Source: Verrucomicrobiia bacterium
Lineage (GTDB): Bacteria > Verrucomicrobiota > Verrucomicrobiia > Limisphaerales > Palsa-1400
Assembly (NCBI GenBank): GCA_025934545.1
Contig: JAICXV010000013.1
Location: 1-11,206, forward strand
Length of the DNA stretch: 11,206 nt
Direction of reading: 5' to 3'
Of the stretch, positions 3,595 to 11,206 are shown piece after piece. A program made the translations under genes and the position numbers. Position 1 is the stretch's first letter. Each line of letters starts with the position of its first letter. The notes below the pieces were generated by a model. The model saw only the letters and a program-made list of their open reading frames with translations. It was not told the DNA's origin and did no database searches.

Positions 3595-3628
3595 ACCCCT
3601 AAAAATAAGGGTTTTACCCCTAAAAATA
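3595..3628. repeat. Two 13-bp direct repeats (ACCCCTAAAAATA) spaced 21 bp
   Basis: ACCCCTAAAAATA occurs at 3595-3607 and again at 3616-3628. The start-to-start distance is 21 bp, about two DNA helical turns, so a protein bound to both copies would sit on one DNA face. The first copy also sits in an imperfect inverted repeat (CCCT...AGGG, 3597-3611). Function is not known; a regulator binding site is the simplest guess. Confidence 0.6.
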
Positions 3629-3635
3629 GCCTATT

Positions 3636-3652
3636 TGAGAAAGTATTTCTCA
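3636..3652. repeat. Perfect palindrome TGAGAAA-GTA-TTTCTCA
   Basis: Seven-base arms at 3636-3642 and 3646-3652 are exact reverse complements around GTA. The half-site TGAGAAA recurs at 3704-3710, and a close variant TTTCTCTCA lies at 3572-3580. The short 3-nt centre and scattered half-sites suit a dimeric DNA-binding regulator better than an RNA hairpin. No T-run follows, so it is not an intrinsic terminator. Confidence 0.5.
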
Positions 3653-3738
3653 GCGATTTTGGGGGTTGTTAATGACTTTTTTACGAGGGAGAAAGCTGCG
3701 TTATGAGAAAAACCCGCAATGTGGCATGAGATTTTCTA

Positions 3739-3768
3739 TTGCATTGTTTCGACACTATGTTTTATAAC
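3739..3768 (+). promoter_or_regulatory. Possible sigma70-type promoter for the pilN-like operon
   Basis: TTGCAT at 3739-3744 and TATAAC at 3763-3768 are separated by 18 nt and resemble -35 and -10 boxes. Transcription would begin near 3775 and give a leader of about 187 nt before the ATG at 3962. The region is AT-rich, so a chance match is possible. Confidence 0.35.
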
Positions 3769-3788
3769 CGCCTCCGTGATAACCGATG

Positions 3789-3820
3789 CATTCGCGACTG
3801 TATAACCTACAGTCGCAATG
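3789..3820 (+). promoter_or_regulatory. Strong stem-loop in the pilN-operon leader (hairpin 1)
   Basis: GCGACTGTA (3794-3802) and TACAGTCGC (3808-3816) form a perfect 9-bp stem with loop TAACC. The stem continues through one bulged C (3793) with CATT (3789-3792) pairing to AATG (3817-3820), giving 13 pairs. No T-run follows. It could be a structured RNA element or, read as DNA, an operator just downstream of the promoter. Confidence 0.6.
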
Positions 3821-3826
3821 GTGGGA

Positions 3827-3850
3827 CCAAGTCGACGAGACACGATTTGG
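3827..3850 (+). promoter_or_regulatory. Stem-loop in the pilN-operon leader (hairpin 2)
   Basis: CCAAGTCG (3827-3834) pairs with CGATTTGG (3843-3850) with one G-U wobble, giving 8 pairs and an 8-nt loop. It starts 6 nt after hairpin 1. The compensable wobble and its place between two other stems support a structured leader, but covariation evidence is not available here. Confidence 0.45.
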
Positions 3851-3863
3851 CCAAGTTGAAACC

Positions 3864-3898
3864 GTTTCGCTTTCCCAGCGGAACAGAAAGGAGTGTTC
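3864..3898 (+). promoter_or_regulatory. Stem-loop 3 with an overlapping alternative stem
   Basis: GTTTCGCT (3864-3871) pairs with AGCGGAAC (3877-3884), 8 pairs with one wobble and loop TTCCC. The downstream arm is shared with an alternative pairing: GAACA (3881-3885) with TGTTC (3894-3898), which would place AAGGAG in its loop. The two stems cannot form together. That arrangement is seen in switches, but the second stem is only 5 bp and could be chance. Confidence 0.4.
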
Positions 3899-3961
3899 GT
3901 CGTCCCGGCCCCTGGCCTCGGTTCAAGGAGTGTAGCTTTAACTTTTTTATTCAGGTGACGT

Positions 3962-4651
3962 ATGCCTATTCGCATTAACTTGCTGGCGGAGGCGCAATCC
4001 GCCGAAGACCTGCGTCGCCGTGACCCGGTTAAACGGGGCATTTGGATCGGCAGCTTCCTCGTTGCGCTGACTCTTCTCTGGTGCGCAAAACTTCAGTTCG
4101 ATATCTGGCATGAAGGTGTTACACGCACCCGTCTGGAGAAAGACTGGGCCCTGAAAGAGCCCAAATACAAAGCGCTCGTCGCGATGCAGGAAAAATCCAT
4201 TCGCCTCGAGTCGATGGACAGCAATCTCGACCGTTACGCCACCAATCGCTTTCTTTGGGCCAACGCCCTCAACGCTGTTCAGCACAGCATTGTCGATGAT
4301 ATCCAGATCACGCGCATTCGCGGCGAACAATCCTTTGAGATGACCAACCCGGAGAATGCGACCAACAACACCGCCAATGGCCCCGTCGTCATTCACAAGC
4401 CCGGCGTCGCCACCGAAAAGATTCGGATCGTTCTCGATGCTCGCGATTTCAACAACCAGAACCAGACCTGGACAAAATTCAAAGAAGCGCTCGCCAAGAA
4501 CGAATATTTCAAACTCCATTTGAAACGCGGCGAGAGTTTCGTGCTCGACGGCACTCAAAGCGCGCCACAACGCGACCCCGCCGATCCGCTTCACGAATAT
4601 GTCACCTTCAGCCTGGTTTCCAAATTACCGGAGGTAAAGCGTTATGAATAA
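3962..4651 (+). CDS. pilN: PilN-like inner-membrane assembly protein (type IV pilus / T2SS-like)
   Basis: This 229-aa bitopic membrane protein fits PilN, which joins PilO and PilP in the inner-membrane alignment complex linking the cytoplasmic ATPase platform to the secretin. The start MPIRINLLAE carries the conserved cytoplasmic IRINLL motif through which PilN binds PilM. After a charged stretch comes one membrane helix at about 28-44. A periplasmic helical part follows at about 50-110. The C-terminal domain, about 153-224, resembles a ferredoxin-like fold (EKIRIVLDARDF ... YVTFSLVSKL). Residues 120-150 are Asn/Thr-rich and less conserved. AGGTGA at 3953-3958 precedes the ATG closely. It overlaps the next gene by 8 nt. 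The PilN call rests on the N-terminal motif, topology, size and gene order, since sequence conservation in this family is low. GspL-like is the alternative. Confidence 0.78.
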   Translation: MPIRINLLAEAQSAEDLRRRDPVKRGIWIGSFLVALTLLWCAKLQFDIWHEGVTRTRLEKDWALKEPKYKALVAMQEKSIRLESMDSNLDRYATNRFLWANALNAVQHSIVDDIQITRIRGEQSFEMTNPENATNNTANGPVVIHKPGVATEKIRIVLDARDFNNQNQTWTKFKEALAKNEYFKLHLKRGESFVLDGTQSAPQRDPADPLHEYVTFSLVSKLPEVKRYE

Positions 4652-7531: not shown

Positions 7532-7567
7532 CTATGCCCTTAACGCGACTTAAAACCGCAAGCATAG
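7532..7567 (+). repeat. Small inverted repeat in the pilQ - NHL-gene gap
   Basis: CTATGC (7532-7537) and GCATAG (7562-7567) are exact reverse complements separated by 24 nt. The right arm touches the ribosome site at 7566-7572. Six pairs with so large a loop is weak, and no T-run follows, so this is not a terminator. It could be chance. Confidence 0.25.
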
Positions 7568-7572
7568 AGAGG
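7566..7572 (+). promoter_or_regulatory. Shine-Dalgarno site deciding the start of the NHL/cohesin-like gene
   Basis: AGAGAGG lies 6 nt before the ATG at 7579. The earlier in-frame ATG at 7534 has no such site and would add 15 residues before a normal signal peptide. Confidence 0.55.
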
Positions 7573-7578
7573 CAATAT

Positions 7579-10560
7579 ATGAATAAAAGATTCTGCGGCT
7601 TCGCCCCGATTGCAGTGCTCTCCGTAGCTTTGCTCTCCTTCGCCATGGCAGCCACGGCGGAAATCGACGTGCAAACGCTCGGCGGCGGACGTCTGGTCGT
7701 CGGCGGCCACGATTACGGCAATGCCGATGGCAACACGTTTACCAACGCGCAATTCAACACGCCTTGGGGCACCGTCCTGGATTCCTCCGGGAACATGTAC
7801 ATGGCCGATCGTCTGAATAATGCGGTTCGCAAAATTACTCTTCCGGGCAACACGCTCAGCAGCCAGACCTCGACGTATCTGTCGGGCCTCAATGCTCCGA
7901 TCGGTGTGGTTTGCGATGGCAACGATAACCTCTATGTCCTGACCAGCGACAACGTCATTCGCGAATACAACAAATTCAAAAACCTGGTCGCCTCCAATTA
8001 TCTTGGCGCGATTTCCGGCCCGAGCGCAATGACGCTCGCGCCCAACGGCAGCAGCCTCTATGTCTGCTATACGAGCGGTTGTATCATTGAAGCCTATCAA
8101 AACGGTTCAACTCGCCTGATCTTGAGCGGTTGCGGCACGATGCGCGGCATTGGTGTTTTGCCGAGCGGCGAAATCGTTGTCAGCCTCAACAACAGTAGTT
8201 CTTTTACAAACGCGATTGTCGTATGTGCGACCAATAACGTGGATCCGAGCGCCCCGACGATCCGTGTTCTCGCCGGCAATAACGGCACTGGATATGTCGA
8301 TGGCACCGCGGGGTTCGCAAAGTTTAATTCCCCCTACGGTTTGGCGGTAACAGTTGATGGCAAAGTGGTCGTTGCCGACCGCCTCAATAACCGTGTCCGT
8401 CTTGTCGACGGTTCCGGCACTACGACGACTCTTTACGGAATCGATCCGACAAATTGGAACAGTTCTTACTTTCCGGGTTGGGCGGATGGCAATCAATCCA
8501 CCGCCGCCTCTCGCGAACCGGTAAGCGTGTGTATTTCGACCAACGGTCTCGTCTTCACCACTGAAGTTTACTATCACATCCTTCGCGAAGTGACCGGCAG
8601 CGGGTTAACCACCGGGGCGACCGGCGGCGGCACCAACGGCACACCCGTTACCATTCCGCCTCCAACATTTTCCCCGAATTGCGGTTATTACCCGCAATGC
8701 CAGACCATCACCGTCAACAGCAGCGGCGCCAATGTCTATTATACGACCGACGGTGCCGAGCCGACGACCAATAGCATTTATGTTCCAACGCCGAACGGTG
8801 TCGGCACATTCACCTGGTGCAATTCGACCAACAGCCTCGTCGGCCTGAAGATGAAAGCGTTTTCAGGAACGAACGCGAGCGTGACCGTCACCGGCGTGGC
8901 CTGTGGTGACAACGAAATCGGATTCTCCAAGGACATTGTCGCCGGCGTCGGTTCGACAATCGTTGTGCCGGTTGTCGTCAATTTGCAGTCGAACGGTGTT
9001 TTGAAATCGTTGCAATTTCGGGTTGAAGTTACGCCGGCGAACGGGGCGCCGGATACCGTCACGATTCTGGATGTTTTGGCAATCGGGTCGAATGATTTCG
9101 TGCGGGTGACCGGCCCGGGCAACGCAGTCAATTACTCGTTGTTCCCATATGCAGCTGCCGGAAATGGACGCGGACTGGTCATTTCGGCGGCTGGTTCCAC
9201 CTCGGGTTTTACCGTCAACAACTTCGCCACCGTTGCTATGCTCAAAATCGGTATTCCGAAAACTTGCACCGTCGGTCAATCATATCAGCTGAATGTATTG
9301 TTCCCGTCCGCGACATCAGATGGCGTGCAGGCCGATGTTCCGCTGACCGTTACACCAGCGCGCAGTATCACCATCCAAAATGTTCAATATCTGGCGGGCG
9401 ACTCTTCGCCGGGCCGTTGGTATAACGCGGGAGATTTCGGCGACTCGATCCTATCGAACTCCGACGTTAACAACGCTCTCTATGCGTCAGTGAACATTCG
9501 TGTGCCATATAGCTTCAGCGATGCGTTCCGCGCGATGGATACCGCGCCGGAAACCCCCGACGGGTTGATTGGCAGCGGCGATATTACGTTCCTCGACTGG
9601 CAAACAATCCTGTTCCGTTCGGTTGGCATCGACACCAACAACTGGTTGCGATTCTGGGGAAATAACGGCCTGCCACAACATCAATCGACCTCGCAGATCG
9701 TGACGCCGCACGGCCCAATTGCACCCAAGCTTGTAACCCCCGGCAGTGTTTGGTTGCGGCAGGCGTTCGTTGCTTCTTCCACCGCGACTTCACAATTGCC
9801 CGGCAACTTCTGTTCGTTGCCTGTGTATGTGAAAGTCGGACCTAATTTCAACCTGTCCGGCATGCAATTCCGCGCGACGCTCGTGCCAGAAGGCAACGCG
9901 CCGATGCCCGGTGCCATCACTTTCACACCTGCCGGCAATATCACTGGCGGACAAGTGCTCCCCGGTCTTTCTCCAAACGACATTGTTTGTGCGTGGTCTC
10001 TCGGCGCCTTTGCTACTCCGTTGCAAAACAGCAATTACCTTGGCCAGATTGGCTTCACCATTCCCGGTGGCGCCCAACAAGGCCAGCGTTACACCTTGCA
10101 GTTTTCCTACGTCGACGGTGCGCCAAACTTGAACACCTTCTACCAACTGGAAAGTTTCCCCGGCTCGGTTTGGGTGATGTCCAACGCAACGACCGCTCCT
10201 TCGCGAACGTCCGACGAATGGAAGAACTATTTCTTCGGCAGCGTGACCAACGCGCTGGCTGACGACAATGCTGACCCGGACGGCGACGGTGTACCGAACT
10301 GGAAAGAATTCATGGCCGGCACCAGCCCGACCAACGCCGCTTCCTGCCTGCACTTTAATTCCGCATTCAACAGCTCCGGTAACACCACGTTGAGCTGGTT
10401 GAGCGCACCGGCCAAGACTTACGTCATCGAAGGCTCTTCCTCTATTAATGCCACTTCCTGGACATCCCTCGGGACGGTTCTCGGCGATGGCACGGTTCAA
10501 CAAGTCACCGAGCCCAACAACGGCACGGTCCAATTTTACAGGATTCGTTTACAACCATGA
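7579..10560 (+). CDS. Large secreted NHL-propeller protein with chitobiase-like, cohesin-like and dockerin-like modules
   Basis: This 993-aa exported protein starts at the ATG with a good ribosome site, in a typical signal peptide (MNKRFCGFAPIAVLSVALLS ... AMAATA). NHL-type beta-propeller repeats cover about residues 40-340 (FNTPWGTVLDSSGNMYMADR; FNSPYGLAVTVDGKVVVADR). Residues 360-440 form a chitobiase C-terminal-like domain (PPTFSPNCGYYPQ; VYYTTDGAEPT). A cohesin-like beta sandwich follows at about 445-598 (STIVVPVVVNLQSNGVLKSL). Residues 604-685 resemble a dockerin, with two Ca-loop-like motifs, GDFGDSILSNSDVNNAL and DGLIGSGDITFLDW. A second cohesin-like domain lies at about 720-865. DPDGDGVPNWKEF near 900 is a calcium-loop repeat. 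The last 70 residues form a beta domain ending FYRIRLQP, a tail common in verrucomicrobial secreted proteins. No catalytic residues are recognisable, so a binding or surface-assembly role is likely. It lies 66 nt after the secretin gene, consistent with co-transcription. Confidence 0.88.
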   Translation: MNKRFCGFAPIAVLSVALLSFAMAATAEIDVQTLGGGRLVVGGHDYGNADGNTFTNAQFNTPWGTVLDSSGNMYMADRLNNAVRKITLPGNTLSSQTSTYLSGLNAPIGVVCDGNDNLYVLTSDNVIREYNKFKNLVASNYLGAISGPSAMTLAPNGSSLYVCYTSGCIIEAYQNGSTRLILSGCGTMRGIGVLPSGEIVVSLNNSSSFTNAIVVCATNNVDPSAPTIRVLAGNNGTGYVDGTAGFAKFNSPYGLAVTVDGKVVVADRLNNRVRLVDGSGTTTTLYGIDPTNWNSSYFPGWADGNQSTAASREPVSVCISTNGLVFTTEVYYHILREVTGSGLTTGATGGGTNGTPVTIPPPTFSPNCGYYPQCQTITVNSSGANVYYTTDGAEPTTNSIYVPTPNGVGTFTWCNSTNSLVGLKMKAFSGTNASVTVTGVACGDNEIGFSKDIVAGVGSTIVVPVVVNLQSNGVLKSLQFRVEVTPANGAPDTVTILDVLAIGSNDFVRVTGPGNAVNYSLFPYAAAGNGRGLVISAAGSTSGFTVNNFATVAMLKIGIPKTCTVGQSYQLNVLFPSATSDGVQADVPLTVTPARSITIQNVQYLAGDSSPGRWYNAGDFGDSILSNSDVNNALYASVNIRVPYSFSDAFRAMDTAPETPDGLIGSGDITFLDWQTILFRSVGIDTNNWLRFWGNNGLPQHQSTSQIVTPHGPIAPKLVTPGSVWLRQAFVASSTATSQLPGNFCSLPVYVKVGPNFNLSGMQFRATLVPEGNAPMPGAITFTPAGNITGGQVLPGLSPNDIVCAWSLGAFATPLQNSNYLGQIGFTIPGGAQQGQRYTLQFSYVDGAPNLNTFYQLESFPGSVWVMSNATTAPSRTSDEWKNYFFGSVTNALADDNADPDGDGVPNWKEFMAGTSPTNAASCLHFNSAFNSSGNTTLSWLSAPAKTYVIEGSSSINATSWTSLGTVLGDGTVQQVTEPNNGTVQFYRIRLQP

Positions 10561-11206
10561 GAACGCAACCATTTAACACGGAAATGATCACCAATATGAA
10601 AACGCGTCTCACCACCCTGCGGCCGAACCTCGGCTCGGTTCTTCGAGCCACGGCTTTGGTATTCGGACTGGTCCTGGCAACTGCGGCGTCCCTGCACGCT
10701 CAAAGTGTGACGACCGTTATTTCGTCGAACCTGTTCGAACCGAATAGCGTCGCCATCGATGCCAACAACGTTCTCTATATCACCGACGGTGCGAACGACC
10801 GCGTCATGAAATTCAATCCGTCCACCGGCAACTTCGTGTCGCTGGCCGGCTCAATCGGTCACACTGGCACGAACAACGGCACCGCCACGGCGGCGCGGTT
10901 CTTTCAACCTGCCGGGATCGTTACCGCTCGCGGCGGTTTGATTGTTGCAGATTCACAAAATCATCTCTTACGATTCGTCAGTTTCAACGGCGTGGTCAGC
11001 AACTTCGCTGGGGTATTCAGCCAGTTTGGTGGCAACGTCGATGGCCCAGCCGCGACGGCGCAATTCAGGTATCCGCTCGGGTTGGCGACCGACACCAATG
11101 GCAATATTTACGTGGCTGATTCAGGCAACGGTTCCATTCGTATCATCGATACGAATAACAATGTTTCCACCTTAGCGACCGGTTTCTATCAACCGTCCGC
11201 CGTTGC
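10557..11206 (+). CDS. Secreted NHL-repeat protein, 3' end cut by window
   Basis: An open frame runs from the ATG at 10557 to the window end (216 codons and 2 nt). Its start overlaps the previous stop by ATGA, suggesting coupled translation. Other in-frame ATG codons at 10584 and 10596 are possible starts; the last gives a shorter signal peptide (MKTRLTTLRP ...). In the long version the hydrophobic core lies at about 31-45 with probable cleavage after LHA at 48. NHL-type propeller repeats follow: PNSVAIDANNVLYITDGAND, PAGIVTARGGLIVADSQNHL and YPLGLATDTNGNIYVADSGN, each followed by a short R/K-(I/F) strand. The repeats resemble those of the upstream protein, so the two may be related by duplication. 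C-terminal modules are outside the window. Role unknown; NHL propellers usually bind protein or other ligands. Confidence 0.87.
   Translation, partial: MRTQPFNTEMITNMKTRLTTLRPNLGSVLRATALVFGLVLATAASLHAQSVTTVISSNLFEPNSVAIDANNVLYITDGANDRVMKFNPSTGNFVSLAGSIGHTGTNNGTATAARFFQPAGIVTARGGLIVADSQNHLLRFVSFNGVVSNFAGVFSQFGGNVDGPAATAQFRYPLGLATDTNGNIYVADSGNGSIRIIDTNNNVSTLATGFYQPSAV

Follow-up and report, generated by a model that had tools for sequence, protein, structure and literature searches.

Plasmid countertranscripts such as CopA/CopT are structured antisense RNAs that lie inside the leader that they control, and at such loci both strands fold; c-di-GMP riboswitches also occur before pilus genes. In Neisseria gonorrhoeae, a cis-acting small RNA adjoins pilE and, in the extract of that report used here, serves recombination at the pilin locus via a G4 structure (PMC3547852). 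The Sinorhizobium meliloti RNAs AbcR1/2 carry several CUCC-type motifs, placed either in a loop or between stems, and NfeR1 has three identical anti-Shine-Dalgarno motifs (extract of PMC8844928).

Between the promoter and the start of a pilN-like gene of a Verrucomicrobiia bacterium, there is a genus-specific RNA of ~150-160 nt, which is conserved and structured and matches no Rfam family. Its likeness to CopA/CopT is that a structured antisense RNA would lie inside the leader it would control; here, however, the place is a genome contig, ahead of a pilus operon, and neither a promoter nor a terminator was identified on the minus strand. Like the gonococcal RNA, as the extract describes it, it would be a cis RNA that neighbours a type IV pilus gene, but one preceding an assembly operon. 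The minus-strand fold has two ACACUCCUU motifs, in its tail and in an internal loop, which resemble the anti-Shine-Dalgarno motifs of the rhizobial sRNAs, likened by their description in the extract (PMC8844928); AbcR1/2 and NfeR1 act in trans, however, whereas the RNA here would be antisense to a leader and shows no terminator at its end. 6S RNA (RF00013) is of similar size and structured, and it was rejected as the identity of the domain: the domain itself is unmatched to RF00013, and the single match in each of the two genomes that carry it lies elsewhere. A sequence-only reading of this DNA had recognised no known RNA class, the c-di-GMP riboswitch included, and the Rfam scans agree. At E≤5 the window (the whole stretch of DNA that was analysed, 11,206 nt) gave two matches, neither in the region; at E≤10 the 281-nt regions of the two genomes gave two matches and one, to unrelated families and far under gathering scores; and no Rfam riboswitch, of the c-di-GMP or any other class, matched either region at E up to 10.

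Both genomes come from uncultured Verrucomicrobiota. The window's own genome (G000) is 73% complete, and its nearest relative (G001, locus L032 in the MAG Verrucomicrobiales bacterium isolate RYN_623) is 67% complete. The PilN of G001 is 78% identical to that of G000, and this is the sole close relative found; the two pilN genes share 179/229 residues, 513/687 bases and 38/82 fourfold sites. The secretin of the operon matches PF00263 (E 1.2e-35), while its second and third genes match the GspM/XpsM model (E 1.6e-6) and the PilP model (E 0.011), each under the curated cut-off; pilN itself has no match in Pfam or NCBIfam, and its name is taken over from the sequence-only reading. A divergent CNNM-type gene (3451-2225) lies upstream of the pilN region. 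After the secretin, two large NHL-repeat proteins are encoded on the same strand (7534-11204), the first also having a CHB_HEX_C_1 domain and the second extending past the contig end.

Matches to pilN were found in 40/58 genomes, and 30 loci were fetched. In all 24 of the fetched loci outside the family a PilM-sized ORF ends directly before pilN; in the six family genomes there is none (the G004 contig has only 248 nt upstream of pilN). In four of these six, pilM is located elsewhere (G002-G005; L057-L060), and in the incomplete G000 and G001 only a weak paralogue and no pilM, respectively, were found. Because a PilM-sized ORF precedes pilN outside the family and not inside it, the leader region occupies the slot of pilM.

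A candidate promoter, proposed by the sequence-only reading, was missed by our sigma-70 consensus scans, but has gained family-wide backing: TTGCAT-N18-TATAA was found by script upstream of pilN in 5/6 family genomes, and the sixth, G001, reads TTGCAA-N18-TATAAC. Transcription of pilN is predicted to start near 3775, ~6 nt ahead of helix P0 (Table 1). Measured by script in five genomes, the -10 box stands 193, 179, 174, 149 and 32 nt ahead of pilN, so the gap between promoter and gene is variable, its content differing between genera. That this promoter was inherited from pilM is unproven, and we set the idea aside: CTTGCA is found upstream of pilM in 6/24 scored relatives (0.29 expected), but of the four pilM genes that have moved elsewhere in the family one has it too, and it therefore looks like a general -35 box.

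Several further blocks are seen near these promoters. A 22-nt block over the promoter, TGGCATGAGATTTTCTATTGCA (3722-3743), is identical in G000 and G001 and exceeds what a bare promoter needs. Farther upstream, at 3636-3652 and 3679-3694 of the window, the alignment with G001 has an inverted repeat, TGAGAAAGTATTTCTCA, conserved in G001 in a slightly altered form, and a second conserved block, TTTTACGAGGGAGAAA; both look like regulator-binding DNA sites. At the 6S promoters of G000-G005, a GTTCTTTG-like block stands ~20 nt ahead of CCCTGCCA, with no obvious consensus -35/-10 pair by eye.

Table 1. Features of the pilN leader region (positions in the window)
Feature	Position	Strand	Remarks
pilN promoter	3739..3768	+	TTGCAT (3739-3744), 18-nt spacer, TATAAC (3763-3768)
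Conserved structured RNA domain	3779..3926	-	Y-shaped fold; plus fold related, less defined
Closing helix P0, arm 1 (AACCGA-GC)	3781..3789		Partner 3915-3923
P1 hairpin	3792..3818		3792-3802/3808-3818
Long arm, side 1	3823..3843		3823-3827 + 3833-3843; pairs with 3893-3912
Hairpin P2 (CCAAGTCG/CGATTTGG)	3827..3850	+	Alternative to long arm
P3 hairpin	3864..3884		3864-3871/3877-3884; one compensatory G-C to A-U change
First AAGGAGTGT	3888..3896		Minus ACACUCCUU; UCCUU part unpaired in internal loop of minus fold
Long arm, side 2	3893..3912		3893-3902 + 3908-3912
Possible sequestering strand CGUCGU	3898..3903	+	Pairs with GUGACG of pilN ribosome-binding site (3955-3960)
Closing helix P0, arm 2 (GC-TCGGTT)	3915..3923		Partner 3781-3789
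Second AAGGAGTGT	3925..3933		Minus ACACUCCUU; 5' tail just outside P0
pilN Shine-Dalgarno-like AGGTGA	3953..3958	+	Predicted also to pair with about codons 17-20 of pilN
pilN-like gene	3962..4651	+	First of pilN-pilO/gspM-like-pilP-like-secretin; ORFs

Between the -10 box and the start codon, 156/201 columns are identical between G000 and G001 (gaps counted as mismatches), against 38/82 fourfold sites in pilN, which argues that the leader is under constraint; within the domain, 115/148 columns are identical. The remaining four family genomes gave no leader similarity in a DNA search, two of them matching in pilN only. The three consecutive stems that had been read from the sequence (3789-3820, 3827-3850 and 3864-3884) are present in G000, by sequence and by folding, and recur in G001, so that conservation and covariation of the stems are found within the genus, in one relative. 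Two parts of the earlier fold need amending: it missed the closing helix P0, and its second stem, P2, competes with a long arm (3833-3843/3893-3902) which joins the P2 loop to the first AAGGAGTGT. We had ourselves first read this loop pairing as a P2 pseudoknot; the long arm of the Y fold accounts for it better.

The exact interval 3775-3961, folded as one strand, does little better than chance (z -1.34, 22/200 shuffles as good), while 3772-3890 and the matching part of the relative reach z -3.35 and -4.51, with 0/200 shuffles as good for each. Across the domain, the two-species alignment (3779-3926) gave z -8.07 on the minus strand and -5.92 on the plus strand, with 0/1000 shuffles as good on either, and a repeat of the test gave -8.21 and -5.57. 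In the coding windows of pilN from the same species pair, on both strands, 17 of the 18 lie between z -2.1 and +0.5, and one is at -3.5. We judge the domain to be almost certainly a structured RNA under selection, probably regulatory, and very likely to act in cis at pilN, by whichever strand.

As to which strand this is, the minus strand was folded as a control. On it the 148-nt domain reaches -63.4 kcal/mol in G000 (z -5.06) and -60.6 in G001 (z -5.75), and on the plus strand -54.4 (z -3.51) and -46.8 (z -3.90); the MFE and centroid structures coincide on the minus strand in both species, and not on the plus. The minus-strand Y fold has 46 pairs, with 91/92 cells standard; substitutions affect both partners in four pairs and a single partner in three. 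Seven of its pairs are G-U on the minus strand in at least one species and are therefore A-C on the plus. Its covariation measures were reached by 27/500 shuffles, and when the structure was slid along the alignment 29-46% of cells paired; as only two sequences carry the element, this covariation is thin and offers support rather than proof. Helix by helix, the eight pairs of P0 are the same in both species (a 1x1 mismatch within it differs), and the 15 pairs of the long arm form on the minus strand in both. P1 keeps 11/11 pairs on the minus strand in both species, three changed on both sides and two on one, whereas on the plus strand 5/13 same-register pairs fail in one species, three of them among the minus-strand 11, and the G000 plus fold forms P1 with a bulge instead. 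In P3 the pair 3867/3881 of G000 is U-G on the plus strand and a C-A mismatch on the minus.

The strand test was calibrated on the 6S RNA of the same genomes. For single sequences, the true strand was picked by lower z in 23/30 and by energy in 26/30, and alignment z picked it in 42/45 pairs, these 45 being made from 10 of the 30 loci, so that pairs share sequences and a single RNA family is the yardstick. The minus-plus difference in z is -2.6 for the domain, whose borders were chosen after the plus fold was seen, against a mean of -2.5 for 6S RNA. In alignment windows of at least 148 nt, the minus strand is better in 10/10, whereas in shorter ones the plus strand is better in 14/22 and the minus in 8/22 (minus in 18/32 overall); short windows favour the plus strand because P2 and P3 form well as hairpins on it. 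Single-sequence windows of 120 nt are mixed, one in G000 giving z -3.0 for the plus strand and -1.9 for the minus. Consensus scans found no minus-strand promoter or terminator at the domain ends; by eye only, a TTAAAG/TTAAAA box precedes ACACTCC on the minus strand, and the P3 of G001 reads there as a terminator-like hairpin, but inside the domain. The 6S promoters of the family, by eye, are likewise unlike the consensus. We give the minus strand an even chance, or a shade better, of being the functional one, and the plus strand somewhat less than an even one.

The explanation that we put first, at just short of an even chance and with a plus-strand leader close behind, is a Y-shaped minus-strand RNA antisense to the pilN leader. 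The domain may be such an antisense RNA, and not a leader, because the minus strand folds better over the whole domain and keeps more of its substituted pairs intact. Computationally, a conserved structured RNA lies opposite a leader, as a cis-antisense RNA does, and the plus strand folds significantly too; against the minus-strand reading, the conserved family promoter reads in the plus direction into the domain. The RNA would start near 3934 and end near or beyond 3779, forming a Y from the closing helix P0, the hairpin P1 and the long arm with P3 as its cap. Its complementarity to the pilNOPQ leader transcribed from the family promoter would be complete, so that the RNA could pair with this leader and thereby stop or alter translation, or bring RNase III cleavage.

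The first-contact sites would be the two ACACUCCUU motifs, which are free or partly free in the fold, the second being partly paired once more flank is folded. The sequence-only reading had pointed to this doubled 9-nt word, and both copies are indeed present and are identical in G001; on the plus strand, where the word reads AAGGAGUGU, neither copy precedes a start codon at a normal distance. In the antisense proposal, the word is doubled and unchanged because the ACACUCCUU motifs serve first contact. The sense leader, for its part, would fold as partly mirrored hairpins, as leaders in plasmid countertranscript systems do. A fuller version of this proposal, which we consider rather unlikely, is a chromosomal countertranscript pair, in which the folded pilN leader and the Y-shaped antisense RNA would meet via the doubled AAGGAGUGU/ACACUCCUU and set the output of pilNOPQ.

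The strongest rival, to which we assign a chance appreciable but under one half, is a cis-acting leader on the plus strand: the mRNA from ~3775 would fold its first 150 nt into P0, P1 and P3, together with either P2 or the long arm. In such a leader GUGUUCGUC (3893-3901) could pair with the P2 loop or, via its CGUC, with the pilN ribosome-binding site, and pilN translation could be switched on or off because GUGUUCGUC has these two alternative partners. The family-wide promoter, with its predicted start just before P0, favours this reading, as do the plus-strand folding that beats shuffles and the preference of short windows for the plus strand. P2 keeps 8/8 plus-strand pairs in both species despite two one-sided changes, and P2 and P3 together keep 18/18 through five substitutions, a result reached in 311/20000 trials of random placement and by 10/2000 random mutants of equal divergence. 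Energy after mutation is not the argument, because in the 106-nt core, on the plus strand, 389/2000 random G000 mutants equal or exceed G001 in stability. The P2 and long-arm folds are ~2 kcal/mol apart or less, and the pairing of CGUC(GU/AC) with GUGACG is retained through two one-sided changes, G001 having CGUCAC.

Against a plus-strand leader, the fold across the domain is less stable and less defined than that of the minus strand in both species, there are two A-C mismatches in the P1 of G001 and one in the lower arm of both species, and no consensus fold stands out in 3886-3961 (z +0.44). Shuffling often yields helices of the length of the switch elements: 15 of at least 6 bp were observed, against a mean of 9.8 in 200 shuffles. 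With 60 nt of pilN added to the fold, the probability that GGUGA in the ribosome-binding site is unpaired is 0.00-0.01 in either species. The switching stem of the sequence-only reading fares poorly here: GAACA (3881-3885) can pair with TGTTC (3894-3898) as it had said, but by eye the 5 bp shrink to 3 bp in G001, and the stem is unconserved there. Its weak pairing of AAGGAGT (3925-3931) with ACTTTTT (3941-3947) can form, and this G-U-rich helix is kept in G001. A transcription attenuator was also considered and rejected, as neither species has a plus-strand terminator in its leader: no terminator hairpin with a T run occurs in 3600-4150 of G000, and the single match in G001 lies inside pilN.

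Regulation of the CsrA type, in which both AAGGAGTGT copies would be GGA sites bound by CsrA, is very improbable. The AAGGA-type GGA motif does occur twice, unchanged in G001, and csrA genes are present in 15/30 relatives, 3/6 family genomes included; none was found, however, in G000 or G001, at their 73% and 67% completeness, and both GGA sites lie clear of the pilN ribosome-binding site. In the family, moreover, csrA goes with flagella, FlhA being found in the same 3/6 genomes, and in two of the three neighbourhoods read (L071, L073) csrA adjoins a gene which, from its sequence, we take to be FliW-like.

Slightly less probable still is an explanation without RNA structure, either by DNA-level palindromes serving as operator sites or by an upstream leader-peptide gene. 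In G000, P1 has the form of a perfect inverted repeat of 9 bp, but its outer arms differ between the species and yet remain complementary, unlike those of an operator. G000 has a 49-codon frame (3786-3935) with its ATG 18 nt past the -10 box, and G003, G004 and G005 (L006, L004, L007) have frames at nearly the same place, so that in four genomes an ATG 16-18 nt past the -10 box opens 43-57 codons that end near the pilN start. In G001, however, this frame has no start (ATG to AAG) and meets a stop after 14 codons, and the four peptides look unrelated (by eye, unaligned); for these reasons we rejected a conserved leader-peptide gene. The least probable explanation is a chance fold, conserved only through overlapping promoter and ribosome-binding signals: the restriction to two genomes, the poor score of the exact interval 3775-3961 and the stability of random plus-strand core mutants would fit it, but the shuffles of the domain on either strand, the pilN coding windows and the Y-fold pairs kept through compensatory changes speak against it.

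The domain was found in 2/320 genomes of the order, G000 and G001, and outside the genus no genome searched gave a convincing copy. Searches were run with two models, each built from two sequences, R1 from the plus fold and R2 from the minus. Among the 320 order genomes, R1 found G000 and G001 strongly, matched G001 weakly at one further position and picked up 11 more genomes with E values of 0.05-0.97 only; in a sample of 384 genomes of the class it found G000 and two more at E 0.003-0.004, about chance level for 384 genomes. Of the 15 weak R1 loci, the four whose alignments were inspected had common fragments only. R2 found 2/39 relatives at E≤1, 2/320 order genomes at E≤0.1 and 1/387 phylum genomes at E≤0.01, in a sample not listing G001. 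The larger searches used stricter filters, which lose weak matches, and older forms of the element may be missed because two-sequence models reach near relatives only. A PilN scan of GTDB contigs gave six loci, with the element in one (L032), and the exact 19-nt core was not found in viral contigs.

Separately, the minus strand of G004 (L004) folds strongly at the corresponding place, between 208 and 88 nt before pilN, where its sequence does not resemble that of G000. The best of three windows gave z -4.2, and one of 13 windows of 120 nt gave -4.3; the fold has another shape, and R2 has no match in G004. In G003 and G005, the three windows tested held no strong minus-strand fold; farther upstream, G003 reaches z -3.6 on the minus strand.

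The sequence-only reading had proposed a new cis-regulatory RNA for this leader. An RNA element tied to the operon is a good reading, because a conserved fold that fits no Rfam family separates a conserved promoter from pilN; it is the coding strand that has become doubtful, the minus strand folding better. At this locus, a reading confined to the coding strand may pick the wrong RNA, because it is the reverse strand of the whole domain that folds better. Control of pilus operons in Verrucomicrobiota seems little studied, a search of the open-licence literature showing no title on it among those listed, and a conserved RNA in the slot of pilM, unmatched in Rfam, offers a direct entry to it. 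If the countertranscript pair is true, it would control the assembly of a type IV pilus or of a type II-like secretion machine.
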